Below are positions 1,131 through 10,336 of a DNA stretch of 33,377 bases, one piece after another. Below the pieces are notes generated by a model that was not told the origin of the DNA, ran no database searches, and worked only from the letters and a program-made list of their open reading frames with translations. The stretch comes from Holospora curviuscula. GTDB lineage: Bacteria > Pseudomonadota > Alphaproteobacteria > Holosporales > Holosporaceae. The stretch is taken from NCBI RefSeq assembly GCF_002930195.1, contig NZ_PHHC01000105.1, positions 1-33,377 on the forward strand, in the 5' to 3' direction. The stretch's first letter is position 1. Each line of letters opens with the position of its first letter. The translations under genes and the position numbers were made by a program.

Positions 1131-1159
1131 TTGACAGTGCATCCATATTAGTGTACATT
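1131..1159 (+). promoter_or_regulatory. Sigma70-type promoter of the salvage operon
   Basis: A perfect -35 hexamer TTGACA at 1131-1136 is followed after 17 nt by TACATT at 1154-1159, which matches the -10 consensus at four of six positions. Transcription would start near 1166, giving a leader of about 320 nt before the first structural gene. That leader contains the Trp-rich short ORF. Confidence 0.65.
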
Positions 1160-1169
1160 TGAGGTATGC

Positions 1170-1184
1170 GCTTTATTGTAAAGC
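1170..1184 (+). terminator. Hairpin GCTTTA-TTG-TAAAGC followed by T-rich sequence
   Basis: A perfect 6-bp stem (1170-1175 with 1179-1184) is followed by TTTATTTTTATTTT. It could be the terminator of the recombinase genes upstream. Because it lies just after the predicted start of the salvage transcript, it could also be a 5' stabilising hairpin of that leader. The stem is weak in GC. Confidence 0.4.
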
Positions 1185-1212
1185 TTTATTTTTATTTTAT
1201 GGAACAAAAATC

Positions 1213-1266
1213 ATGTTAAACCTAGTAATTAAAAATTTGACAATTCAAGGTTGGCGCTGGCCTTAA
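1213..1266 (+). CDS. trpL: Putative Trp leader peptide (attenuator peptide)
   Basis: This ORF encodes MLNLVIKNLTIQGWRWP and ends in TAA. It has two Trp codons (1252-1254 and 1258-1260) separated by one Arg codon, in a 17-codon peptide. A GGA at 1201-1203 lies 9 nt before the ATG. It sits 54 nt after the predicted promoter and 218 nt before an operon for tryptophan salvage whose ten proteins have only seven Trp between them. Leader peptides with tandem or near-tandem Trp codons are the sensor of transcription attenuation in many proteobacterial trp operons. Translation is inferred. It is too short for database-style detection, so position and Trp content are the evidence. Confidence 0.75.
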   Translation: MLNLVIKNLTIQGWRWP

Positions 1267-1299
1267 TTCGTTTGCGTGCGTTACTTTGTCAATTTTTTT
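1231..1299 (+). promoter_or_regulatory. Leader RNA helix enclosing the Trp codons, ending in T7
   Basis: TGACAA at 1238-1243 is complementary to TTGTCA at 1286-1291, and the helix extends with A/T pairs (1231-1235 against 1294-1298). It encloses the Trp codons and a smaller hairpin, AAGG 1247-1250 with CCTT 1261-1264, extended by AATT on each side. The 3' arm runs into seven T residues at 1293-1299. Ribosomes translating the leader peptide would open the 5' arm. Whether this is terminator or antiterminator cannot be decided by eye. Confidence 0.45.
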
Positions 1300-1365
1300 A
1301 ATCTATGGTTTATAACATGTTATCTCTTGTTTTAGAATATTCGTTTCAATCTTCCCCTATTTTCT

Positions 1366-1398
1366 CTATGTCGTGGCCGTCCGGCCAATAGTATTTTT
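1366..1398 (+). terminator. Candidate attenuator terminator in the operon leader
   Basis: TGGCC (1374-1378), a GTCC loop and GGCCA (1383-1387) form a tight GC hairpin. CTAT at 1366-1369 and ATAG at 1388-1391 can extend it. It is followed by TATTTTTAT with five T in a row at 1394-1398. It lies about 100 nt after the Trp leader peptide and before the first structural gene, the right place for an attenuator. A TGGCC inside the leader ORF (1258-1262) could pair with the 3' arm, but by only five bases. Confidence 0.5.
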
Positions 1399-1423
1399 AT
1401 AGTTAATTTTCTGTAATTGATCT

Positions 1424-1444
1424 GCATTAACGTTAACCTAATGC
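1424..1444 (+). promoter_or_regulatory. Inverted repeat upstream of the first operon gene
   Basis: GCATTA at 1424-1429 and TAATGC at 1439-1444 form a perfect 6-bp inverted repeat around a GTTAAC palindrome. The central GTTAAC resembles the core of a TrpR operator, but the flanking CTAG half-sites are absent, and the site is far downstream of the predicted promoter. An operator or RNA hairpin are both possible. Confidence 0.3.
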
Positions 1445-1484
1445 ACCTTTATCTATAAAACTCAACTTTTGACATGGAGTACAT

Positions 1485-2453
1485 ATGAAAAAGTTCTTCT
1501 ATTTTATCGCTGTATTTATTATTTCTATAACAGCATTCACTATTTATAACAATAAGACACACAATACGCTACCTGTTGTAGCAATAGCTAATTATGGGCC
1601 GCATGCTTCTCTTGAGACTGCCATAGCTGGGTTCAAAGAGCAGATGCGAGCGGAAGGTTTTACTGAAAATCAAAATATACACTACGAAACTGCAGATGTT
1701 GGATTCGATCCGAGCTTAATCCAGCAAATGCTTATCAGTCTTAAAGCGCATAACCCCAGAGCCATGTTGGTTATGACAACTCCGGTTGCACAAGCAGTCA
1801 AAGGTAAGATTCATGATATTCCTCTAATTTATACAGTCATTACAGACCCTGTAGAAGCTGGGTTGATCAAAGAGAAATATAAAGCTGGTACCAATATTAC
1901 AGGCAGCTCTGATATGCAAGACCTCAAGGCATTTCTGAAATTCGCTAAATCAATTTTACCAGAAGCAAAGAGGGTCGGACTATTATATGCAACATCAGAA
2001 GCCAATGATATTGCGTTAGTTAATATGATGAAGGCAAGTGCAGCAGAGCTTGATATGTCTGTTATCGCAATACCAGTGGAACAAGCGCGCGATGTACAAA
2101 TCAGAATGCAGGAATTCAAAAACAAAGTGGATTTAATCTATGTAGGTACGAGCGGACCAATCCAGCCAACGTTGCCAGTAATTAGTGCAGAGGCTCGCAA
2201 AATGCATATTCCTGTATTTAATGTGGAGGTGCAAGCAGTGAGGGATGGATTAGCGCTTGCAAGTTTTGGTGTGGATTATACGACTGTTGGTAGAAATGCA
2301 GCTAAACTTACAGCAGATGTTCTGCGGGGGCAAAAAATTAGTGACTTGACTCCGTTATATCCAGCACCTGAGGATCATCACGGTCTGATCAATAAAAAGC
2401 TCGCAACAGAATTAGGTATTACAATTCCTTCCAATATAGCAATTGTGGAGTGA
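1485..2453 (+). CDS. TrpX-type ABC transporter substrate-binding protein
   Basis: This 322-residue protein belongs to the ABC_sub_bind family (COG2984 type), the binding component of TrpXYZ-like importers tied to tryptophan in other bacteria. Residues 4-21 are a hydrophobic export or anchor segment; no lipobox cysteine follows, so it should be periplasmic or membrane-tethered. The body is typical: LPVVAIANYG start, MLVMTTPVAQA, TDPVEAGL, GLLYATSEAND and a VDYTTVGRNAA end. The ATG at 1485 has GGAG at 1476-1479, 5 nt away. It is the first structural gene after the Trp leader and is followed 3 nt later by its ATPase. It contains no tryptophan. Location in a kynureninase/trp operon suggests kynurenine, or tryptophan itself, as ligand; this is inference. 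Confidence 0.85.
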   Translation: MKKFFYFIAVFIISITAFTIYNNKTHNTLPVVAIANYGPHASLETAIAGFKEQMRAEGFTENQNIHYETADVGFDPSLIQQMLISLKAHNPRAMLVMTTPVAQAVKGKIHDIPLIYTVITDPVEAGLIKEKYKAGTNITGSSDMQDLKAFLKFAKSILPEAKRVGLLYATSEANDIALVNMMKASAAELDMSVIAIPVEQARDVQIRMQEFKNKVDLIYVGTSGPIQPTLPVISAEARKMHIPVFNVEVQAVRDGLALASFGVDYTTVGRNAAKLTADVLRGQKISDLTPLYPAPEDHHGLINKKLATELGITIPSNIAIVE

Positions 2454-2456
2454 TTT

Positions 2457-3191
2457 ATGATTAATATTACAAAAGTTATAAAATCATTCCAAGGTCTTTT
2501 TAGGCCTGTAATAAATGACGTAAGTCTATCTTTAGAACGTGGCGATTTCTGCGTGCTGATTGGAGCCAATGGCTGCGGCAAATCTACTTTGCTTAAGTTA
2601 ATAAGCGGGGAGCATAAAGCGGATTCCGGTGAGATAAAACTAAGCGGTGATGTGGCGCAAGTTGTACAAGATGTCAACTTGGGCACTGTGCCTGAAATGA
2701 CTCTGCTGGAGAACATTGCCTTAAGTGAAGTAAAAACGCCAAAATTGCTATTTTATAGAAGATATAAAGATCAAGTTATTCAAAAGCTAAAAGAATTGGG
2801 TATTGGCTTAGAGGAATATATTGATCAACCTTTGAAAATGCTATCTGGTGGGCAAAGGCAGATGATCGCAACCCTAATGGCAATTAATTCCGGCAGGCAA
2901 ATTTTGCTGCTAGATGAGCATACATCGGCACTTGATCCTAAAATGCAGACTGTGCTTATGGAATACACTCACAAGCAAGTCGTAAATCGTGGACTAACTA
3001 CCATAATGATTACGCATAAAATGGATGACGCTATCAAGTATGGCAATCGCTTAATTATGCTTCACCAGGGTAAAATAGTGCTAGATATACAAAGGACTCA
3101 AAAGAAGGCCTTGGCTGTGCAGGATTTGCTTGCAATGTTTCATCAGTATGAGGAGCAGCTTTTAGTATCTGGAGGTGAACATGACAATTGA
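2457..3191 (+). CDS. TrpZ-type ABC transporter ATPase
   Basis: A 244-residue cytoplasmic ATP-binding subunit. Walker A GANGCGKST is at residues 36-44, the Q-loop region near VAQVVQD (67-73), the ABC signature LSGGQRQ at 129-135, Walker B ILLLDEH at 149-155 with a following D-loop SALDP, and the H-loop histidine in MITHKMD near 187. It would energise import by the permease that follows. The gene starts 3 nt after the binding-protein stop and overlaps the permease start by 11 nt, so the three subunits are translationally linked. It contains no tryptophan. Family assignment to the COG1101 group rests on its two partners and overall pattern. Confidence 0.9.
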   Translation: MINITKVIKSFQGLFRPVINDVSLSLERGDFCVLIGANGCGKSTLLKLISGEHKADSGEIKLSGDVAQVVQDVNLGTVPEMTLLENIALSEVKTPKLLFYRRYKDQVIQKLKELGIGLEEYIDQPLKMLSGGQRQMIATLMAINSGRQILLLDEHTSALDPKMQTVLMEYTHKQVVNRGLTTIMITHKMDDAIKYGNRLIMLHQGKIVLDIQRTQKKALAVQDLLAMFHQYEEQLLVSGGEHDN

Positions 3192-4011
3192 ACTTCTCTA
3201 CACTGGGATATTACAAGGATTAATATTAGCAATTATTGCCTTTGGCATTATGATCCCATTCCGTTTTCTCGACTTCCCAGATTTAACAGCAGAAGGGGCA
3301 TACCCACTCGGAGGCGCAGTGTGTGCATGCTTAATGGTTGCAGGGATACCCAAAATATTAGCTATTATGGGTGCTATTATAGCCGGAGGATTGCTGGCAG
3401 TGGGCACATCACAAGTGGCTCTCAGGCTAAAGGTTAACAGCCTGCTTGCTGGAATTATACTCAGCACCATGGCCTATAGTGTTAACCTCAGGATTATGGG
3501 TAAGCCAAATATAGCATTGTTTGAGATGGGTGGCATAAACCTTGATCTGATATCGCTGATTATGGTTGTTATTCTTTGCATTATACCTTTTGCCTTGTTT
3601 TTACATACCGATTTTGGCCTACGCTTTCGCACAATAGGCAGCAATGCAAAATTTGCTATAAAGCATGGGATTAGTGTACACAAATATACAAGCTTAGGCT
3701 TATTCATTGCAGGGTCTATGTTTGGTCTTGCAGGCAGCTTAATAGTGCAAATGCAGCAATTCATGGATGTAGGCATGGGAGTTGGTATAGTGATTCATGG
3801 GTTGGCAAGCCTGATGATCGGAGAATCAATAGTAAGCAATAGAACGATATCAAAACAACTAGCAGCCCCCATCATTGGCGCTCTTATTTATCAACAAATC
3901 CAGGGGATCGCTTTATCTTTTGGTCTTGCACCTTCAGACTTAAAATTCTTTACAGGAAGTATAGTGTTGATTGTGCTTGCAATACAAAAAGGGGGTAAAG
4001 ATGTTAGTTGA
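3181..4011 (+). CDS. TrpY-type ABC transporter permease
   Basis: A 277-residue integral membrane protein with about seven to eight hydrophobic segments, of the branched-chain/COG4120 permease type. A recognisable family stretch is FRFLDFPDLTAEGAYPLGGA near residues 26-45, with GLRFRTIGSNAKFAIKHGIS as the cytoplasmic coupling loop near residues 145-165. I use ATG 3181 because GGAGG at 3171-3175 is 5 nt upstream; GTG 3175 overlaps that site. With the two genes before it, it forms a complete importer. A polytopic permease with no tryptophan residue is unusual, since membrane proteins tend to be Trp-rich, and fits an operon expressed during Trp starvation. The substrate is unproven. Confidence 0.88.
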   Translation: MTIELLYTGILQGLILAIIAFGIMIPFRFLDFPDLTAEGAYPLGGAVCACLMVAGIPKILAIMGAIIAGGLLAVGTSQVALRLKVNSLLAGIILSTMAYSVNLRIMGKPNIALFEMGGINLDLISLIMVVILCIIPFALFLHTDFGLRFRTIGSNAKFAIKHGISVHKYTSLGLFIAGSMFGLAGSLIVQMQQFMDVGMGVGIVIHGLASLMIGESIVSNRTISKQLAAPIIGALIYQQIQGIALSFGLAPSDLKFFTGSIVLIVLAIQKGGKDVS

Positions 4012-5146
4012 TAAGTTCATTTTACCTGAAGGCAAAGTTTACATGTGCGGCCATTCTTTAGGGCCTAGTCTTAAAACAATTTCAGATGCTATGTGTAACA
4101 CGCTACAAGATTTCGCTTCATATGGAGTTAGTAGTTGGAATAAAAGCGGTTGGATCGATTTGCCATATACTTTGGGTACAAAAATAGCTGCACTTGTAGG
4201 TGCCAATTCTGATGAGGTTATTGTCAGTGACTCTACAGTTGTCAATCTTTTTAAGGCGTTAAAAGCAGCGATGAGCCTACAAAAAGGACGTAATATTATT
4301 CTCACTACTGATGATAATTTTCCAGCCGATTTATACATTGCCCAAGGAATATCTGAAGTAAGGTATATAAAAGATACAAAAGCTGATGAAATATACGAAA
4401 ATATAGATGAGACAGTTGCGGTACTTATGTTGACTCACGTTAATTACAGAGACGCTTCTGTGTTAGAGATGAAAGCAATTAATGACTATGCGCACAAATA
4501 TGGCGTTCTAATCGTATGGGATTTGTCTCATAGCATAGGGATAGTACCGTTGGATTTAGAGGCGAGTGGCGTGGATTTTGCTGTAGGTTGCACGTATAAA
4601 TACCTAAGCGGAGGCCCTGGCAGTCCTGCATTTATATATGCAAATAGAAAGCATCACGAAGTCATGCAAAGTCCGATTCAAGGGTGGATGGGGCATAATC
4701 AGCCATTCGCTTTTGAAAAAGAATATGCCTCGTCTGGTGTACGAAAATTTATGAGCGGAACTCCTGCTATATTAAGTATGAAAGCCTTAGAAGATGCTTT
4801 GGAGGTATTTGACAGGAGCCTAATAGATAAAGCTTATTCTATAGCCAATGAATACAGTAGCCTCCTCATCGAATCATTAAAGAATTGCGATATAGAAGTC
4901 TATGCCCCACAAAACAGAGGGGGGCATGTTGCTCTCACGCATAAGCATGGATATGCATTCTCCCGCGCACTTATAGAAGCAAGTTTTATCTGCGATTACC
5001 GTGCGCCAGATCTAGTGCGGCTATGTGTGAACCCGCTGTATATTTCGCTCGACAATATTGAGTCTTGTATTGAGAAAATTCGTTTCATTATAGAAAAGGC
5101 TTTGTATTTAAAACCAGAATATAATCAGATGCAGAAGGTAACATGA
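4001..5146 (+). CDS. kynU: Kynureninase
   Basis: A PLP enzyme of 381 residues that cleaves L-kynurenine to anthranilate and L-alanine. Family signatures are clear: VYMCGHSLGPS near residues 13-23 (usual YLCGNSLGLQP), VWDLSHS at 172-178 with the Asp that contacts the PLP nitrogen, the Schiff-base lysine Lys200 in GCTYKYLSGGPGSPAF, and GWMGHNQPF followed by RKFMSGTPAILS. Length is slightly under the usual 400-420. ATG 4001 follows a GGGGG run at 3991-3995 and overlaps the permease end by 11 nt. The stop overlaps trpD as ATGA. Its product is the TrpD substrate, which explains the absence of anthranilate synthase. Its four Trp residues, in SSWNKSGW, VWD and GWMGH, lie in conserved motifs. Confidence 0.93.
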   Translation: MLVDKFILPEGKVYMCGHSLGPSLKTISDAMCNTLQDFASYGVSSWNKSGWIDLPYTLGTKIAALVGANSDEVIVSDSTVVNLFKALKAAMSLQKGRNIILTTDDNFPADLYIAQGISEVRYIKDTKADEIYENIDETVAVLMLTHVNYRDASVLEMKAINDYAHKYGVLIVWDLSHSIGIVPLDLEASGVDFAVGCTYKYLSGGPGSPAFIYANRKHHEVMQSPIQGWMGHNQPFAFEKEYASSGVRKFMSGTPAILSMKALEDALEVFDRSLIDKAYSIANEYSSLLIESLKNCDIEVYAPQNRGGHVALTHKHGYAFSRALIEASFICDYRAPDLVRLCVNPLYISLDNIESCIEKIRFIIEKALYLKPEYNQMQKVT

Positions 5147-6129
5147 TGAAAAAATTATTAAACTTAGAAAACTTAACTCAGCAAGAAGCTTATGAGTTAT
5201 TTAGTGAATTTGCTGAATACGAGCCAGAAAAACAGTCTGCTGTTTTAGCATTATTCAGAGCTAAAAAAGAAACAACTGACGAAATATTTGGCGCGCTGCA
5301 ATATTTTGGACAGCATTCAACAAATATAATACATAGTCTTGAAGTTGTAGATATTGTTGGTACCGGAGGCGATGGGATGGGCACATTCAATATCTCCACG
5401 GCCGCCAGCATTGTTATGGCAAGCTGCGGTGTTTTTGTTGCAAAGCATGGAGGCCGGGCTGCTTCCAGCATTGCTGGAAGTCATGACGTTGTGCAAGCTC
5501 TGGGCATACAGATACCCCAGACTGTGGAAGAAAGTCTAAAAAGCTTACAGCAGACGAACTATACATATTTATGTGCTCCGTTATTTAATGAGGAACTTAA
5601 AAAATATGGAGCATTGCGTCAAAAACTTGGGTTCCCAACTATTTTTAATATCATAGGTCCACTTCTCAATCCTATGCGACCAAAGAGATGCGTTATAGGT
5701 GTATATCGAAGGGATTTAATGCAAAAAGTAGCGGAAGTACTGGCAGTACAAAAGGTTAATCATGCGCTCGTTGTGCATTCTGATGATGGCCTGGATGAGC
5801 TCAGTATAAGCAGTAATACTCATGTAATTGAGGTTAAAGGTATATCTATAAAAGAATATGACCTGATCCCTCAGGATTTTGGCTTTTCTAAAGCGCAACT
5901 TTCTGATGTAAGAGGAGGAAGTGCTGCCGAAAACGCAACCCTTATTTGTGACATATTATCTGGCACAATTAATGGCCCTAAATTATATATAGTGCTTCTG
6001 AATGCTGCAGCAGGACTATATGTTACTGGAAAATCCACCAGTATTGCAGATGGTATATTGCTAGCTAAAGCGTCAATAGAACAAGGCAAAGCTACTACGT
6101 TATTAAATAAAATCAAGGGTTCAATATGA
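5143..6129 (+). CDS. trpD: Anthranilate phosphoribosyltransferase
   Basis: A 328-residue enzyme joining anthranilate and PRPP to give phosphoribosylanthranilate. The PRPP-binding glycine-rich loop GTGGDG is at residues 73-78 followed by TFNIST (81-86). The anthranilate-site motif KHGGRAASS is at 101-109, followed by GSHDVVQALG. NIIGPLLNPMRP further on is also family-typical. Length is normal. There are two adjacent ATGs: 5143 overlaps the kynU stop, and 5146 is 7 nt from AGAAGG at 5133-5138 and may be the real start. It contains no Trp. No TrpG domain is fused and no trpE or trpG is seen in the window, so anthranilate must come from KynU or uptake. Confidence 0.95.
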   Translation: MMKKLLNLENLTQQEAYELFSEFAEYEPEKQSAVLALFRAKKETTDEIFGALQYFGQHSTNIIHSLEVVDIVGTGGDGMGTFNISTAASIVMASCGVFVAKHGGRAASSIAGSHDVVQALGIQIPQTVEESLKSLQQTNYTYLCAPLFNEELKKYGALRQKLGFPTIFNIIGPLLNPMRPKRCVIGVYRRDLMQKVAEVLAVQKVNHALVVHSDDGLDELSISSNTHVIEVKGISIKEYDLIPQDFGFSKAQLSDVRGGSAAENATLICDILSGTINGPKLYIVLLNAAAGLYVTGKSTSIADGILLAKASIEQGKATTLLNKIKGSI

Positions 6130-6905
6130 GTGTAAATTTTTTAGAAAAAATTAGATCGTATGTCGAAAGAAGGGTTGAGTTAATGCCTGATAATCTCATA
6201 GAAACGCCAAATACACTGGATTTCTGCCAGATATTCACTACGCCTACAAAACCTATCATTATTAGCGAGGTAAAATTTGCAAGCCCTTCTCGCGGTCAAA
6301 TATATCCAGGCCAATTAAACCATGTTGATATTGCCTCAAGTTATATTAACGCAGGCGCTGCTGCTGTTTCAGTGTTAGCTGAGCCTAATTACTTCAAAGG
6401 CAGCATAGATTTCATTAAAGATATCAGAGCTGCGCATCCTGAATTGCATATATTACTTAAAGATTTTGTTTTAAGCAAAAAACAAATAGCACAAGGGCTT
6501 CTATGTGGTGCCAATGCAGTATTGCTTATTGCGACCTTCTTGAATAAAGATTTATTAAAAGAACTTTATGACTATTCTTTGCATTGCGGGCTTACACCGA
6601 TTATAGAAGTGCATAATGCTTTGGAATTGGAACAAGCTTTGCAGGTTTCTCCTCGTGTTATCGGGATTAATAATCGGAATCTGCAAACGTTAGAAATCAG
6701 TTTGGATACTTCTGGTAATTTAATAAAACACATTCCAGATGATTGCTATGTTATATGTGAAAGCGGCATAGATAACGCTGTGCAAATTCAAGAGATGAAG
6801 GATATTGGATTGGATGGATTTCTAATTGGCTCAATGTTGATGAGGCATGAAAATCCTGGAATGGAACTACAGAAATTGATATCTGAGGTACGTAATGAAA
6901 GCTAA
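6126..6905 (+). CDS. trpC: Indole-3-glycerol phosphate synthase
   Basis: A 259-residue TIM-barrel enzyme that closes the indole ring from carboxyphenylamino-deoxyribulose phosphate. Catalytic-site motifs are present: E48-x-K50 with SPSRG (53-57), the general acid lysine Lys112 in LLKDFVLS, GINNRNL, CESGI and the phosphate loop GFLIGSMLM. It is a stand-alone TrpC and not a TrpC-TrpF fusion; trpF is the next gene. The start overlaps trpD as ATGA and the end overlaps trpF by 11 nt. The N-terminal cap is short. No Trp is encoded. Confidence 0.95.
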   Translation: MSVNFLEKIRSYVERRVELMPDNLIETPNTLDFCQIFTTPTKPIIISEVKFASPSRGQIYPGQLNHVDIASSYINAGAAAVSVLAEPNYFKGSIDFIKDIRAAHPELHILLKDFVLSKKQIAQGLLCGANAVLLIATFLNKDLLKELYDYSLHCGLTPIIEVHNALELEQALQVSPRVIGINNRNLQTLEISLDTSGNLIKHIPDDCYVICESGIDNAVQIQEMKDIGLDGFLIGSMLMRHENPGMELQKLISEVRNES

Positions 6906-7503
6906 AATCTGTGGAATCACTACTCTAGAAGATGCATCATTTGCTGCGAATCATGGTGCATGGGCGATTGGATTTAATTTTTATAAAAATTCCCCACGTT
7001 ATGTTTCGCTTCAAAAAGCGAGAGAAATTACGTCACAATTACCAAAACATATTATAAAAGCGGGGATTTTGATCGATTATTCACAACATGAGATGTTGGA
7101 TGCTTTAGAGTTTCTTGATCTGGTTCAAATATATCAACAAAACCCATCATTATTTTTTGATAAAAAGCGAATTATATTAGCTTTGCAAGCCTCATCTAAA
7201 GATGAGCTGCCTGAAACTCCAATATTGCAAGAATATGGGTTTATATTACTCGATGCCCCGAAACAGCAGGATGGGTTGCTTGGTGGCACTGGTAGACTTG
7301 CTAATTGGGATTTGGCCAGAGAACTAGTCAAAGACTATAAGCTTATTTTAGCAGGTGGGTTAAATAACTCAAATGTTGCGACATCCATAAAGTATGTGCA
7401 GCCGTTTGCGGTTGATGTAGCGAGCGGGGTTGAAGAGCGGCCTGGAAGTAAAAACCCAGTAGCAGTAAAAGAATTTTTAATGAGGTGTGAAAATGTCAAA
7501 TAA
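6895..7503 (+). CDS. trpF: Phosphoribosylanthranilate isomerase
   Basis: A 202-residue TIM-barrel enzyme for the Amadori rearrangement between TrpD and TrpC. The N-terminal KICGIT motif supplies the catalytic cysteine (Cys6), the general acid aspartate is in FILLDAP, and GGTGR plus the [10 protein letters not shown] phosphate loop follow. [15 protein letters not shown] is the usual end. ATG 6895 has GAGG at 6885-6888. It overlaps trpC by 11 nt and trpB by 11 nt. It has only two Trp, one of them in the family-typical GAWAIGFNF segment. Confidence 0.95.
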
Positions 7504-8692
7504 AAAAGGATATTTTGGGGAATATGGTGGTGCTTATGCTCCTGAAACATTAATGGCACCACTTGCAGAATTAGAAGCTGCATATCTAAAGCTTCAATAT
7601 GAAGCAACTTTTAAGCAAGAGTTACAAGATTTGCTTACTCACTTTGTAGGGAGGCCAACCCCATTATACTTTGCAAAACGTCTAACCCAGCATCTTAATG
7701 GTGCGCAAATATATCTAAAGCGCGAAGATTTAACCCATACGGGTGCGCATAAAATCAACAATACGGTTGGCCAAGGACTACTTGCAAAACATATGGGTAG
7801 ACGCAGGCTGATAGCAGAGACAGGCGCAGGGCAGCATGGAGTTGCAACGGCAACTATAGCAAGCTTACTCGGCATGGAGTGTGTCGTTTATATGGGAGCC
7901 GTTGATATGGAGCGGCAGCACCTTAATGTAGTACGTATGCAAATATTAGGTGCAGAAGTTCGAGCAGTGCATAACGGGTCTAAAACCCTTAAGGACGCAA
8001 CATCTCAAGCCATGCGCGATTGGGTTAGTAATATTAAAGATAGCTACTATGTTCTGGGCTCAGCACTAGGGCCACACCCTTATCCTACCATTGTTCGAGA
8101 TTTTCAAAGAATTATCGGAATTGAAGCGAGGAAGCAAATATTGGAAATGATTGATAAGTTGCCAGATGAATTGGTTGCGTGTGTTGGTGGAGGTAGTAAT
8201 TCTATTGGCTTATTTCATCCCTTTTTACACGATTTACAAGTAAAAATGACTGGAATTGAAGGCGGTGGTATCAGCCTGCGTCTTGGTGAACATGCTGCCA
8301 GGTTTAATGGCGGAAAACCAGGTGTATTACAAGGAACTAAGAGCTATCTTTTGCAAGACGAGTATGGAAATGTTAGCAATACGCATAGCGTTTCGGCAGG
8401 GCTTGATTATCCAAGTGTAGGGCCAGAACATGCTTATTTGCATGATATAGAACGTGTTCAATATACTTATGCAACAGACCAAGAAGCTTTGCATGCCGCC
8501 TTTACGCTCGCAAAGCTAGAGGGAATTATTCCAGCATTAGAAAGCGCGCATGCTATAGCTTATGCTATTAAAGCAGCCCCACTTTTTCCGCAAAGTTACA
8601 TAATGCTCATAGGGCTTTCGGGTAGAGGAGATAAGGATGTAGAAACATTAGCAACCTATTTGGAGGATAAAAATGATAAAAGCGGCATTTGA
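7493..8692 (+). CDS. trpB: Tryptophan synthase beta chain
   Basis: A 399-residue PLP enzyme that condenses indole and serine to tryptophan in the alpha2beta2 complex. The Schiff-base lysine is Lys87 in HTGAHKINN and the catalytic glutamate is Glu109 in AETGAGQHG, both at the numbering of E. coli TrpB. The PLP phosphate loop [11 protein letters not shown] and the GIEGGG segment are intact. ATG 7493 is preceded by GAGG at 7482-7485; the GTG at 7487 overlaps that site and was set aside. It overlaps trpA by 20 nt, consistent with coupled synthesis of the two subunits. One Trp only. Confidence 0.97.
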
Positions 8693-9452
8693 CAAACATA
8701 AGTCCATATTCATCCCATTTATTATGGCTGGACATCCTAATTTAGCAGTATCAACAAAAGCTGTTATGGCCCTTGCACGAGCTGGGGCTGATATAATAGA
8801 GCTTGGTGTGCCTTTTTCAGATCCTATTGCTGATGGTCCTGTGAATCAAAGAGCTGCTGAACTCGCTATAGGAAATGGTATGAACCTTGGTGAAGTATTA
8901 ACACAAGTGCAAGCAATAAGGAGTATGGGTTGCAAAACACCGATCATACTTTTTACTTACCTTAATCCGATCTTGGCGTTCGGTTACGGTAAATTTTGTC
9001 ACCAAGCTAAAGCAGCTGGAATAGATGGAGTGCTAGTTGTAGATCTTCCACCGGAAGAAGGTGAGGATTTTTACGCTATACTTCAAGAAGCTGGACTAGA
9101 AATTGTGTTGCTTGTATCGCCCACAACAGATCCAGCAAGGCTGCCTATTTATATAAAGCGTAAGCCTTGCTTTATTTATTATATCTCTAGACTGTCTGTT
9201 ACTGGCATCCAGCAAGATTTATCGAATACTTTAGAGGAGGAGCTGCATGATTTACGTAAAACCATAACTAATACAAAAATAGCAGTAGGATTTGGCATAT
9301 CATCAATAGAACAAGCGAAATATGTGAGTCACATTGCCGATGGGGTGATTATAGGGAGTAAACTGGTTTCAACACTCGAAACCTCTGGGATAGGTGCGTT
9401 TGAAGATAAAGTAAAAGAATTTGCGGATATTATACATGGAGGTAATTTATGA
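8673..9452 (+). CDS. trpA: Tryptophan synthase alpha chain
   Basis: A 259-residue TIM-barrel subunit that cleaves indole-3-glycerol phosphate to indole. [14 protein letters not shown] carries the two catalytic acids, Glu43 and Asp54 (equivalent to E. coli Glu49 and Asp60). The mobile-loop region SRLSVTGIQ and the phosphate-binding end VGFGISS plus GVIIGSKLV are recognisable. GGAGG at 8662-8666 is 6 nt from the ATG and lies inside trpB. The stop overlaps prs as ATGA. No Trp residue. Together with TrpB it completes the route, so the operon's end product is tryptophan. Confidence 0.96.
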
Positions 9453-10336
9453 TAATCATTGGAGGAAGCAGTCATCCAATCCTTGCTCAGCAGATAGCAG
9501 GCAAACTTGGATGTGATTGCATTATTGCAAATACCAAGAAATTTGCGGATCAAGAGCTAAAAGTCCAAGTAAACAAGGATTTATACGGCGAGGACGTAAT
9601 TATATTACAATCTACAACGAGACCTGCAAATGACCACCTGATGGAGCTATTATTACTTGCAGATACCGCAAAAAGAGCTGGCTGCAACAGCATAACTGCA
9701 GTTATACCCTATTTCGGCTATGGTAGGCAAGACAGACCATCTTATGAGTATGGCCCGATATCAGCCAGTTTAGTAGCGAGGATAATTGAAATTAGCGGTA
9801 TTGATAAAGTGGTGACTGTAGATATGCACTCAAAACAATCAGAAGGGTTTTTTAAGATTGGAGTTAAAAACCTTGACTCGACAGATTGTTTTATTAATGC
9901 ATTGCAGAAAAATAGTAATTATATGGTTATCTCCCCTGATGTTGGCGGCTTGCCACGGGCCAGGATACTGGCTTCGAAGCTCGAAACTGTCCTTGCCATC
10001 ATTAACAAGACGCGCGATCTTCAGGGCAAGTGCATAATGTCCGATGTTATAGGCAATGTTACTGGAAAAGATTGTATTATTATAGATGATATAGTAGACA
10101 CTGGCGGCACTTTATGCGAAGCAGGGAAGCTTTTAATGCAAAGTGGCGCAAACTCAGTAAGTGCTTGCATTACCCATGCCGTCTTTTCTGAAAACTGCAT
10201 AGATAGAATAAGTCGAGCAGGATTTGCTGAATTCTTTATAACAGATACCGTACATCATCAAAACTTACCTTCTTTTATTAATGTAATTCAAACAAGTGAG
10301 CTTATAGTTAAGGCTTTGTTGAAATGTAATAAATGA
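9449..10336 (+). CDS. prs: Ribose-phosphate pyrophosphokinase (PRPP synthase)
   Basis: A 295-residue enzyme that makes PRPP from ribose 5-phosphate and ATP. Seen are the ATP/flexible-loop region YFGYGRQDRP, VTVDMHSKQSEGFF (usual DLHxxQIQGFF), SPDVGGLPRA, and the PRPP loop CIIIDDIVDTGGTL. It is shorter than the usual 310-320 residues of housekeeping class I enzymes, and the segment after RQDRP differs (SYEYGPISASLVA), so allosteric control may be altered. It is coupled to trpA by ATGA and contains no Trp. PRPP is the second substrate of TrpD, which explains its place here; the C. caviae trp operon also ends with a prs gene. This may be a dedicated paralogue of a housekeeping prs elsewhere. Confidence 0.93.
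   Translation: MIIIGGSSHPILAQQIAGKLGCDCIIANTKKFADQELKVQVNKDLYGEDVIILQSTTRPANDHLMELLLLADTAKRAGCNSITAVIPYFGYGRQDRPSYEYGPISASLVARIIEISGIDKVVTVDMHSKQSEGFFKIGVKNLDSTDCFINALQKNSNYMVISPDVGGLPRARILASKLETVLAIINKTRDLQGKCIMSDVIGNVTGKDCIIIDDIVDTGGTLCEAGKLLMQSGANSVSACITHAVFSENCIDRISRAGFAEFFITDTVHHQNLPSFINVIQTSELIVKALLKCNK

Follow-up and report, generated by a model that had tools for sequence, protein, structure and literature searches.

In translational attenuators such as cat86 and the Bacillus subtilis rtpLP, which lies before rtpA and uses Trp codons, a ribosome stalled on a leader ORF is thought to free the downstream Shine-Dalgarno sequence. Other regulators carry two successive leader ORFs. In one published model for ermA, a stall on ermAL1 opens ermAL2 and a stall on ermAL2 opens the gene; in ermB, stalling on the first leader (ermBL) did not induce the second (ermBL2) (PMC8274638). 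For Trp genes, trpE(G) of Sinorhizobium meliloti is controlled by a classical trpL attenuator (PMC7298713), and trpXYZ of Streptococcus suis is under a Trp T-box and is induced at Trp shortage (PMC9382623). Chlamydia caviae and its relatives have a trp operon with kynU and prsA, without anthranilate synthase, that recycles host kynurenine (PMC3937554). We found no description of leader peptides of alphaproteobacterial trpXYZ operons, or of a Trp relay with two uORFs, in the freely accessible literature searched.

The locus described here lies in a stretch of 33,377 nucleotides of Holospora curviuscula DNA (the window). Like the erm regulators ermAL1/ermAL2 and ermBL/ermBL2, it has two successive leader ORFs (uORF1 and uORF2) before the controlled gene; the erm inducer is a macrolide, whereas the sensor in the window would be the charging of tRNA-Trp at Trp codons, and the second step in the window, unlike that of the erm regulators, includes a terminator-like hairpin. 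Two features of cat/erm/rtpA-type translational attenuators are found in the leader, namely conserved stall codons and a next ribosome-binding site that is paired with the leader ORF upstream of them, and one-step relatives of the locus (L012-L014, L017, L018) look like cat86 and rtpLP. There is, however, no sequence relation to these two systems, the window interposes a second uORF and a terminator-like hairpin, and its target is an importer operon. The S. meliloti trpL is likewise an alphaproteobacterial Trp-codon leader peptide, but it works by terminator and antiterminator before a biosynthesis gene, whereas no antiterminator was found in the window and the target begins with an importer. 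Streptococcus trpXYZ is the same kind of transporter operon, but its T-box binds tRNA directly without a leader ORF, and the window gave no T-box match. The C. caviae salvage operon resembles the window cluster in that kynU and a gene for PRPP synthase accompany trp genes from which anthranilate synthase is missing, but is led by trpR and has no importer, whereas the window cluster sits behind an importer with a Trp-codon leader. We propose, with a probability of about 60%, that this leader is a Trp-responsive, ribosome-mediated relay of two sequestered ribosome-binding sites (Table 1).

Table 1. Features of the leader and of the genes behind it (window positions)
Feature	Positions	Strand	Remarks
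Sigma-70-type promoter	1131..1159	+	TTGACA-N17-TACATT
Helix A, 5' arm	1212..1250	+	uORF1 start codon to just short of the Trp codons
uORF1, leader peptide MLNLVIKNLTIQGWRWP-stop	1213..1266	+	17 codons; UGG at 1252 and 1258; conserved ...WWRWR-type peptides in relatives
Helix A, 3' arm	1281..1319	+	T7 tract, ribosome-binding region and AUG of uORF2
uORF2, MLSLVLEYSFQSSPIFSMSWPSGQ-stop	1317..1391	+	ends in GGCC hairpin; coding constraint in the comparison with L002 (p 0.007)
Helix B, 5' arm CUCUAUGUC	1364..1372	+	uORF2 segment just before its UGG
Hairpin UGGCC-GUCC-GGCCA, then TATTTTT	1374..1398	+	possible intrinsic terminator
Helix B, 3' arm GACAUGGAG	1471..1479	+	Shine-Dalgarno region of trpX
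trpX-type ABC transporter substrate-binding protein	1485..2453	+	PF04392; best NCBIfam TrpX, below its cut-off
ABC transporter ATPase	2457..3191	+	follows trpX in relatives
ABC transporter permease	3175..4011	+	PF02653; follows in relatives
kynU, kynureninase-like	3971..5146	+	TIGR01814, below its cut-off
trpD, trpC, trpF, trpB, trpA	5143..9452	+	
prs, ribose-phosphate diphosphokinase	9449..10336	+	

A preliminary description of this DNA had pointed to a perfect -35 element, a 17-nt spacer and a fair -10 element. All are present (TTGACA at 1131-1136 and TACATT at 1154-1159, 10 of 12 matches), although promoter-like sites are as such not rarer than chance in that region (4 found against 8.1 expected). 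One close relative of the locus was available for comparison, L002 from Holosporales bacterium RE-23may17-753, the nearest relative with the locus, whose transporter protein is 84% identical. Its promoter reads TTGACA-N17-TATAAA, with the -35 element and the spacing kept, and it also retains uORF1, the T tract and the hairpin of the window leader. Similarity between the two is 0.70 over the promoter as against 0.42 with 16 gaps directly upstream of the -35 element, and identity runs at 0.70-0.87 from the promoter to the trpX start codon. The 5' end of the transcript (1168-1212) is also conserved in L002; it has a small GCUUUA/UAAAGC hairpin and the sequence TTATTTTATGGAACAAAAAT, in which there is a further AUG (1199) whose very short frame overlaps the start of uORF1. 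Directly upstream of the promoter, positions 303-1090 hold a fragment that contains the recombinase zinc-ribbon domain PF13408, then an ORF without a Pfam match, perhaps the remains of a serine recombinase and the mark of an insertion.

The 17-codon ORF with Trp codons that had been reported is confirmed as uORF1, and L002 keeps it, Trp codons included, as MLTVVMKNFAIHWWRWR-stop. By searching other alphaproteobacterial genomes with the transporter protein, we found leader peptides of the ...WWRWR-stop kind before a trpX-type transporter gene in seven families (f58, f169, f176, f136, f8, f9 and f114) besides the window's own (f1). They include MLEVFGIIKSLAWWRR-stop (L010), MLEIFTMVGNLAWWRWRH-stop (L029), MLEIFKIVKNVWWRWRY-stop (L030), MLEISEGRKNLIGWRWRR-stop (L031), MSGMIESLPWWRWRR-stop (L043), MFGIFKIIKNLPWWRWHS-stop (L028 and L056), MHDIRGRNLIKGWRWQF-stop (L012), MYGNRDRSLIKGWRWQK-stop (L053), VISHICLKNVFRWWRWRA-stop (L013), MFALFVKNLISNRWRWRL-stop (L014) and, with the frame continuing, MNLTLIKLLNTNRWWRW (L017 and L018). 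Three members of the Trp clade, L025, L026 and L070, have no such leader ORF, and a further search in the orders of genomes G149, G117, G120, G142 and G015 added few relatives. Between the window and L002, the placement of substitutions in uORF1 gives no coding signal beyond the Trp codons. Conservation of the leader ORF and its Trp codons in the window's own family and seven others strongly supports control of the importer operon by a Trp-codon leader.

Two leader hairpins followed by T tracts, ending at 1299 and 1398, had been noted earlier, and both are there; the leader as a whole (1166-1500) folds with a z score of -3.69, and none of the shuffled sequences folds as well. In the first, an inner helix of UUGACAA (1237-1243) and UUGUCAA (1286-1292) encloses the Trp codons and is followed by the T7 tract (1293-1299). 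The preliminary description had missed the far longer enclosing helix, helix A, in which the uORF1 start codon is paired with that of uORF2; it had also missed uORF2 itself and the pairing with the trpX ribosome-binding site that we call helix B. The fold of 1199-1325 has a free energy of -29.9 kcal/mol (z -3.36; no shuffle as good).

Helix A was scored in 15 loci under one rule, in which uORF1, from 10 nt before its start to the first Trp codon, faces the sequence between its stop codon and the following start codon, with z scores relative to dinucleotide shuffles. In all 15, the pairing beat the shuffle mean and extended over the next ORF's start codon and ribosome-binding site; z was -4.2 for the window, -6.2 for L010, -4.5 for L031, -4.2 for L014 and, at the weakest, -1.3 for L004, and one locus from each of six families gave a combined p of 1.5e-7. 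In a six-sequence alignment, the paired share of helix A cells is 88%, and sliding the partner gives 55% at most. Covariation in the homologous leaders, which had been suggested as a check, takes the form of six helix A pairs changed on both sides, with shuffle controls that are milder, since 9 of 500 shuffles do as well in percentage paired and 24 of 500 in the number of double-changed pairs. RNAalifold independently proposes the same helix. The ORF whose start is covered is a second uORF in the window, in L002/L004 and in the order of genome G185; in L012, L053, L013, L014, L017 and L018 it is trpX itself, and the space left there for a terminator is small.

The inner helix with its T7 tract could also act as a terminator, the 5' arm of which would be covered by the Trp-stalled ribosome with no antiterminator involved. 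The window stem is directly followed by T7, and a stalled footprint at about 1237-1264 would cover exactly the 5' arm, but we consider this reading unlikely: it leaves unexplained both why the pairing always extends over the next start codon and why uORF2 is constrained (see below), the inner stem is weakened in L002, and L031 has lost the U tract while retaining helix A. The enclosing helix makes best sense as a lid that covers the following ORF at its ribosome-binding site and start codon. Of the attenuator that had been proposed before the importer operon, the Trp-codon leader thus stands, whereas the T7 helix is better understood as part of this lid than as a terminator.

The start of uORF2 sits inside helix A. 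Against its L002 counterpart (MLYIVLKYSFQSYPLFSMSWPSGQ-stop), uORF2 shows zero indels and 12 substitutions, split 3/2/7 over the codon positions, and only 0.7% of random placements of these substitutions gave no stop and so few amino-acid changes. The order of genome G185 has an equivalent ORF, in most cases behind a Shine-Dalgarno-like motif, which ends within the same hairpin or just past it (..FFWPLGR-stop, ..FSWPFGL-stop, ..LWPWGQF-stop); the Shine-Dalgarno sequence of the window uORF2 is poor.

The GGCC hairpin in which uORF2 ends (1374-1387) is followed by T5 at 1394-1398, seven bases behind the stem, and hairpin and T tract together lie in the loop of helix B. The fold of 1355-1490, which contains helix B, has a z score of -3.21. 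The local z score of the helix B duplex is -3.7 for the window and -4.0 for L002, with segment limits picked after the pairing had been seen; wider segments give only -0.8 to -1.3 for the window. Relatives support its location, with scores of -5.7 in L024, -4.9 in L075 (16 unbroken pairs), -4.2 in L043, -3.3 in L033, -3.1 in L082, -2.9 in L029 and -2.2 in L010; the Phe-type loci described below give no helix B signal (z near 0). Control might be exerted at one level, with translation of uORF2 switching a single output, either the GGCC terminator or the trpX ribosome-binding site. The T tract behind the hairpin is indeed weak in several Trp-type relatives (at most two T in L043) and good in most other types, and helix B is strong in many relatives, but the window has the hairpin with T5 as well as helix B, and we regard a single output as rather improbable, somewhat more so than the T7 terminator.

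From these ORFs, their conservation and their pairing partners, we infer stalling, opening, the direction of control and the shares of transcription and translation in the two-step relay as follows. When Trp is plentiful, ribosomes would complete uORF1 and depart, helix A would form and uORF2 would stay silent, so that the GGCC hairpin and its T tract could terminate transcription; in transcripts that read through, helix B would hide the trpX ribosome-binding site. When Trp is scarce, ribosomes would stall at the two UGG codons of uORF1 and queue back to its start codon, so that the 5' arm of helix A would be masked and uORF2 translated. The uORF2 ribosome would then cross the helix B arm and the hairpin, or stall at UGG 1374, and termination would be prevented and trpX exposed. 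The importer genes, and kynU-trpDCFBA-prs downstream of them, would thereby be switched on. The opening of helix A would free trpX directly in the one-step relatives.

Ribosome-masked folding, another check that had been suggested, shows a weakness of the model at its first opening step. In equilibrium folding with one stalled footprint masked, the outer half of helix A stays paired and the uORF2 start region is not exposed (unpaired probability 0.18); with two queued footprints masked it opens partially, to about 0.46-0.63. Since a single footprint fails to open helix A, the model needs either a queue of ribosomes or co-transcriptional kinetics. Taken together, these data are best read as ribosome-mediated attenuation in a new form.

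Two further explanations appear very improbable. The uORF1 peptide ends in W-R-W-P-stop, somewhat like TnaC, which ends in Pro-stop, and might therefore sense free Trp by nascent-peptide arrest. We consider such arrest unlikely, since the Pro before the stop is not conserved: relatives end in WWRWR-stop, WWRWRA-stop, WRWQF-stop or WWRWHS-stop. In L017 and L018, moreover, the frame continues past the Trp codons. A classical trp attenuator with 1:2, 2:3 and 3:4 hairpins would likewise begin with a Trp-codon leader peptide and have a GC-rich hairpin and a T tract after it, but 1267-1365 pairs with the terminator arm (1370-1382) no better than chance (z +0.9), which leaves the 2:3 antiterminator that was looked for absent, and the 1:2 pairing reaches z -1.2 only. 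The suspicion in the preliminary description that the mechanism departs from the textbook scheme was therefore correct. A search against Rfam families, T-boxes and trp leaders included, gave no match at the gathering score or at E 1, and a Trp T-box riboswitch was rejected for want of a match to the T-box covariance models.

Downstream of the leader, the gene set is as had been claimed, an importer followed by kynU-trpDCFBA-prs. In relatives, where contigs reach far enough, the ATPase and permease genes usually come next after trpX, and kynU or trp genes do not follow. Among ten genomes of its order, the window genome is the only one with trpB, and among 16 genomes searched it is the only one with a full-strength kynU match. 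The salvage cluster (3971-10336) thus looks acquired, and was apparently added behind an importer switch that is older. The window genome and its genus also have a second PF04392 transporter gene (L009, at G000:C71:52941-53831, L006 and L007), which is preceded by a gene for a protein of the Trp-repressor family (PF01371, E 4e-22 for L009); a repressor, and not a leader peptide, seems to control this paralogue. Further along the window, between 12616 and 31281, many ORFs resemble acetyltransferases and phosphotransferases by eye.

Paralogous transporter genes in the order of genome G185 are each preceded by one leader ORF, which ends at the same GGCC/GGCU hairpin. Some carry runs of Tyr codons (L081, ending in ..LYSYSYYYWLPSQL-stop, L052, L024, L082, L032 and L075), others runs of His codons (L042, ending in ..PHHHHHWLSSQL-stop, L076 and L078), and others are rich in Phe (a second L043 locus, with ..FFLFLFFLFFWPLGQYIFF, L034, L047 and L037). 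When the leader types (Trp, Phe, Tyr and a nested His type) are placed on the transporter protein tree, they are clustered much more strongly than shuffled labels are, and this agreement between leader types and transporter clades suggests that specificity has been re-coded. Part of the Tyr pattern may come from pairing and not from sensing, because helix B overlaps some of the Tyr codons, and for the Phe type, whose loci give no helix B signal, an attenuator is suggested by codon content and clade alone. We tentatively propose, at a little less than even odds, that TrpX-type importers of alphaproteobacteria are under a common family of amino-acid-starvation leaders, in which a helix covers the next start site and the regulatory codons lie in its loop. 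The family would include a one-step switch and a two-step relay whose second step contains a terminator. In paralogues the leaders would have been re-coded, for Tyr, for His and possibly for Phe, so that the specificity of a transporter could be predicted from its leader codons.

A two-step relay of this kind would be, for amino-acid starvation, what the proposed two-leader relays are for antibiotic resistance genes, in a class for which the literature that we found describes the classical trpL scheme only. One-step and two-step forms occur in related genomes, so that the evolution of the switch could be followed. Should the versions for Tyr, His and Phe prove real, the cargo of uncharacterised importers could be read directly from leader codons. 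In H. curviuscula itself, a cluster for the salvage of kynurenine to tryptophan would have been placed under a pre-existing importer switch.
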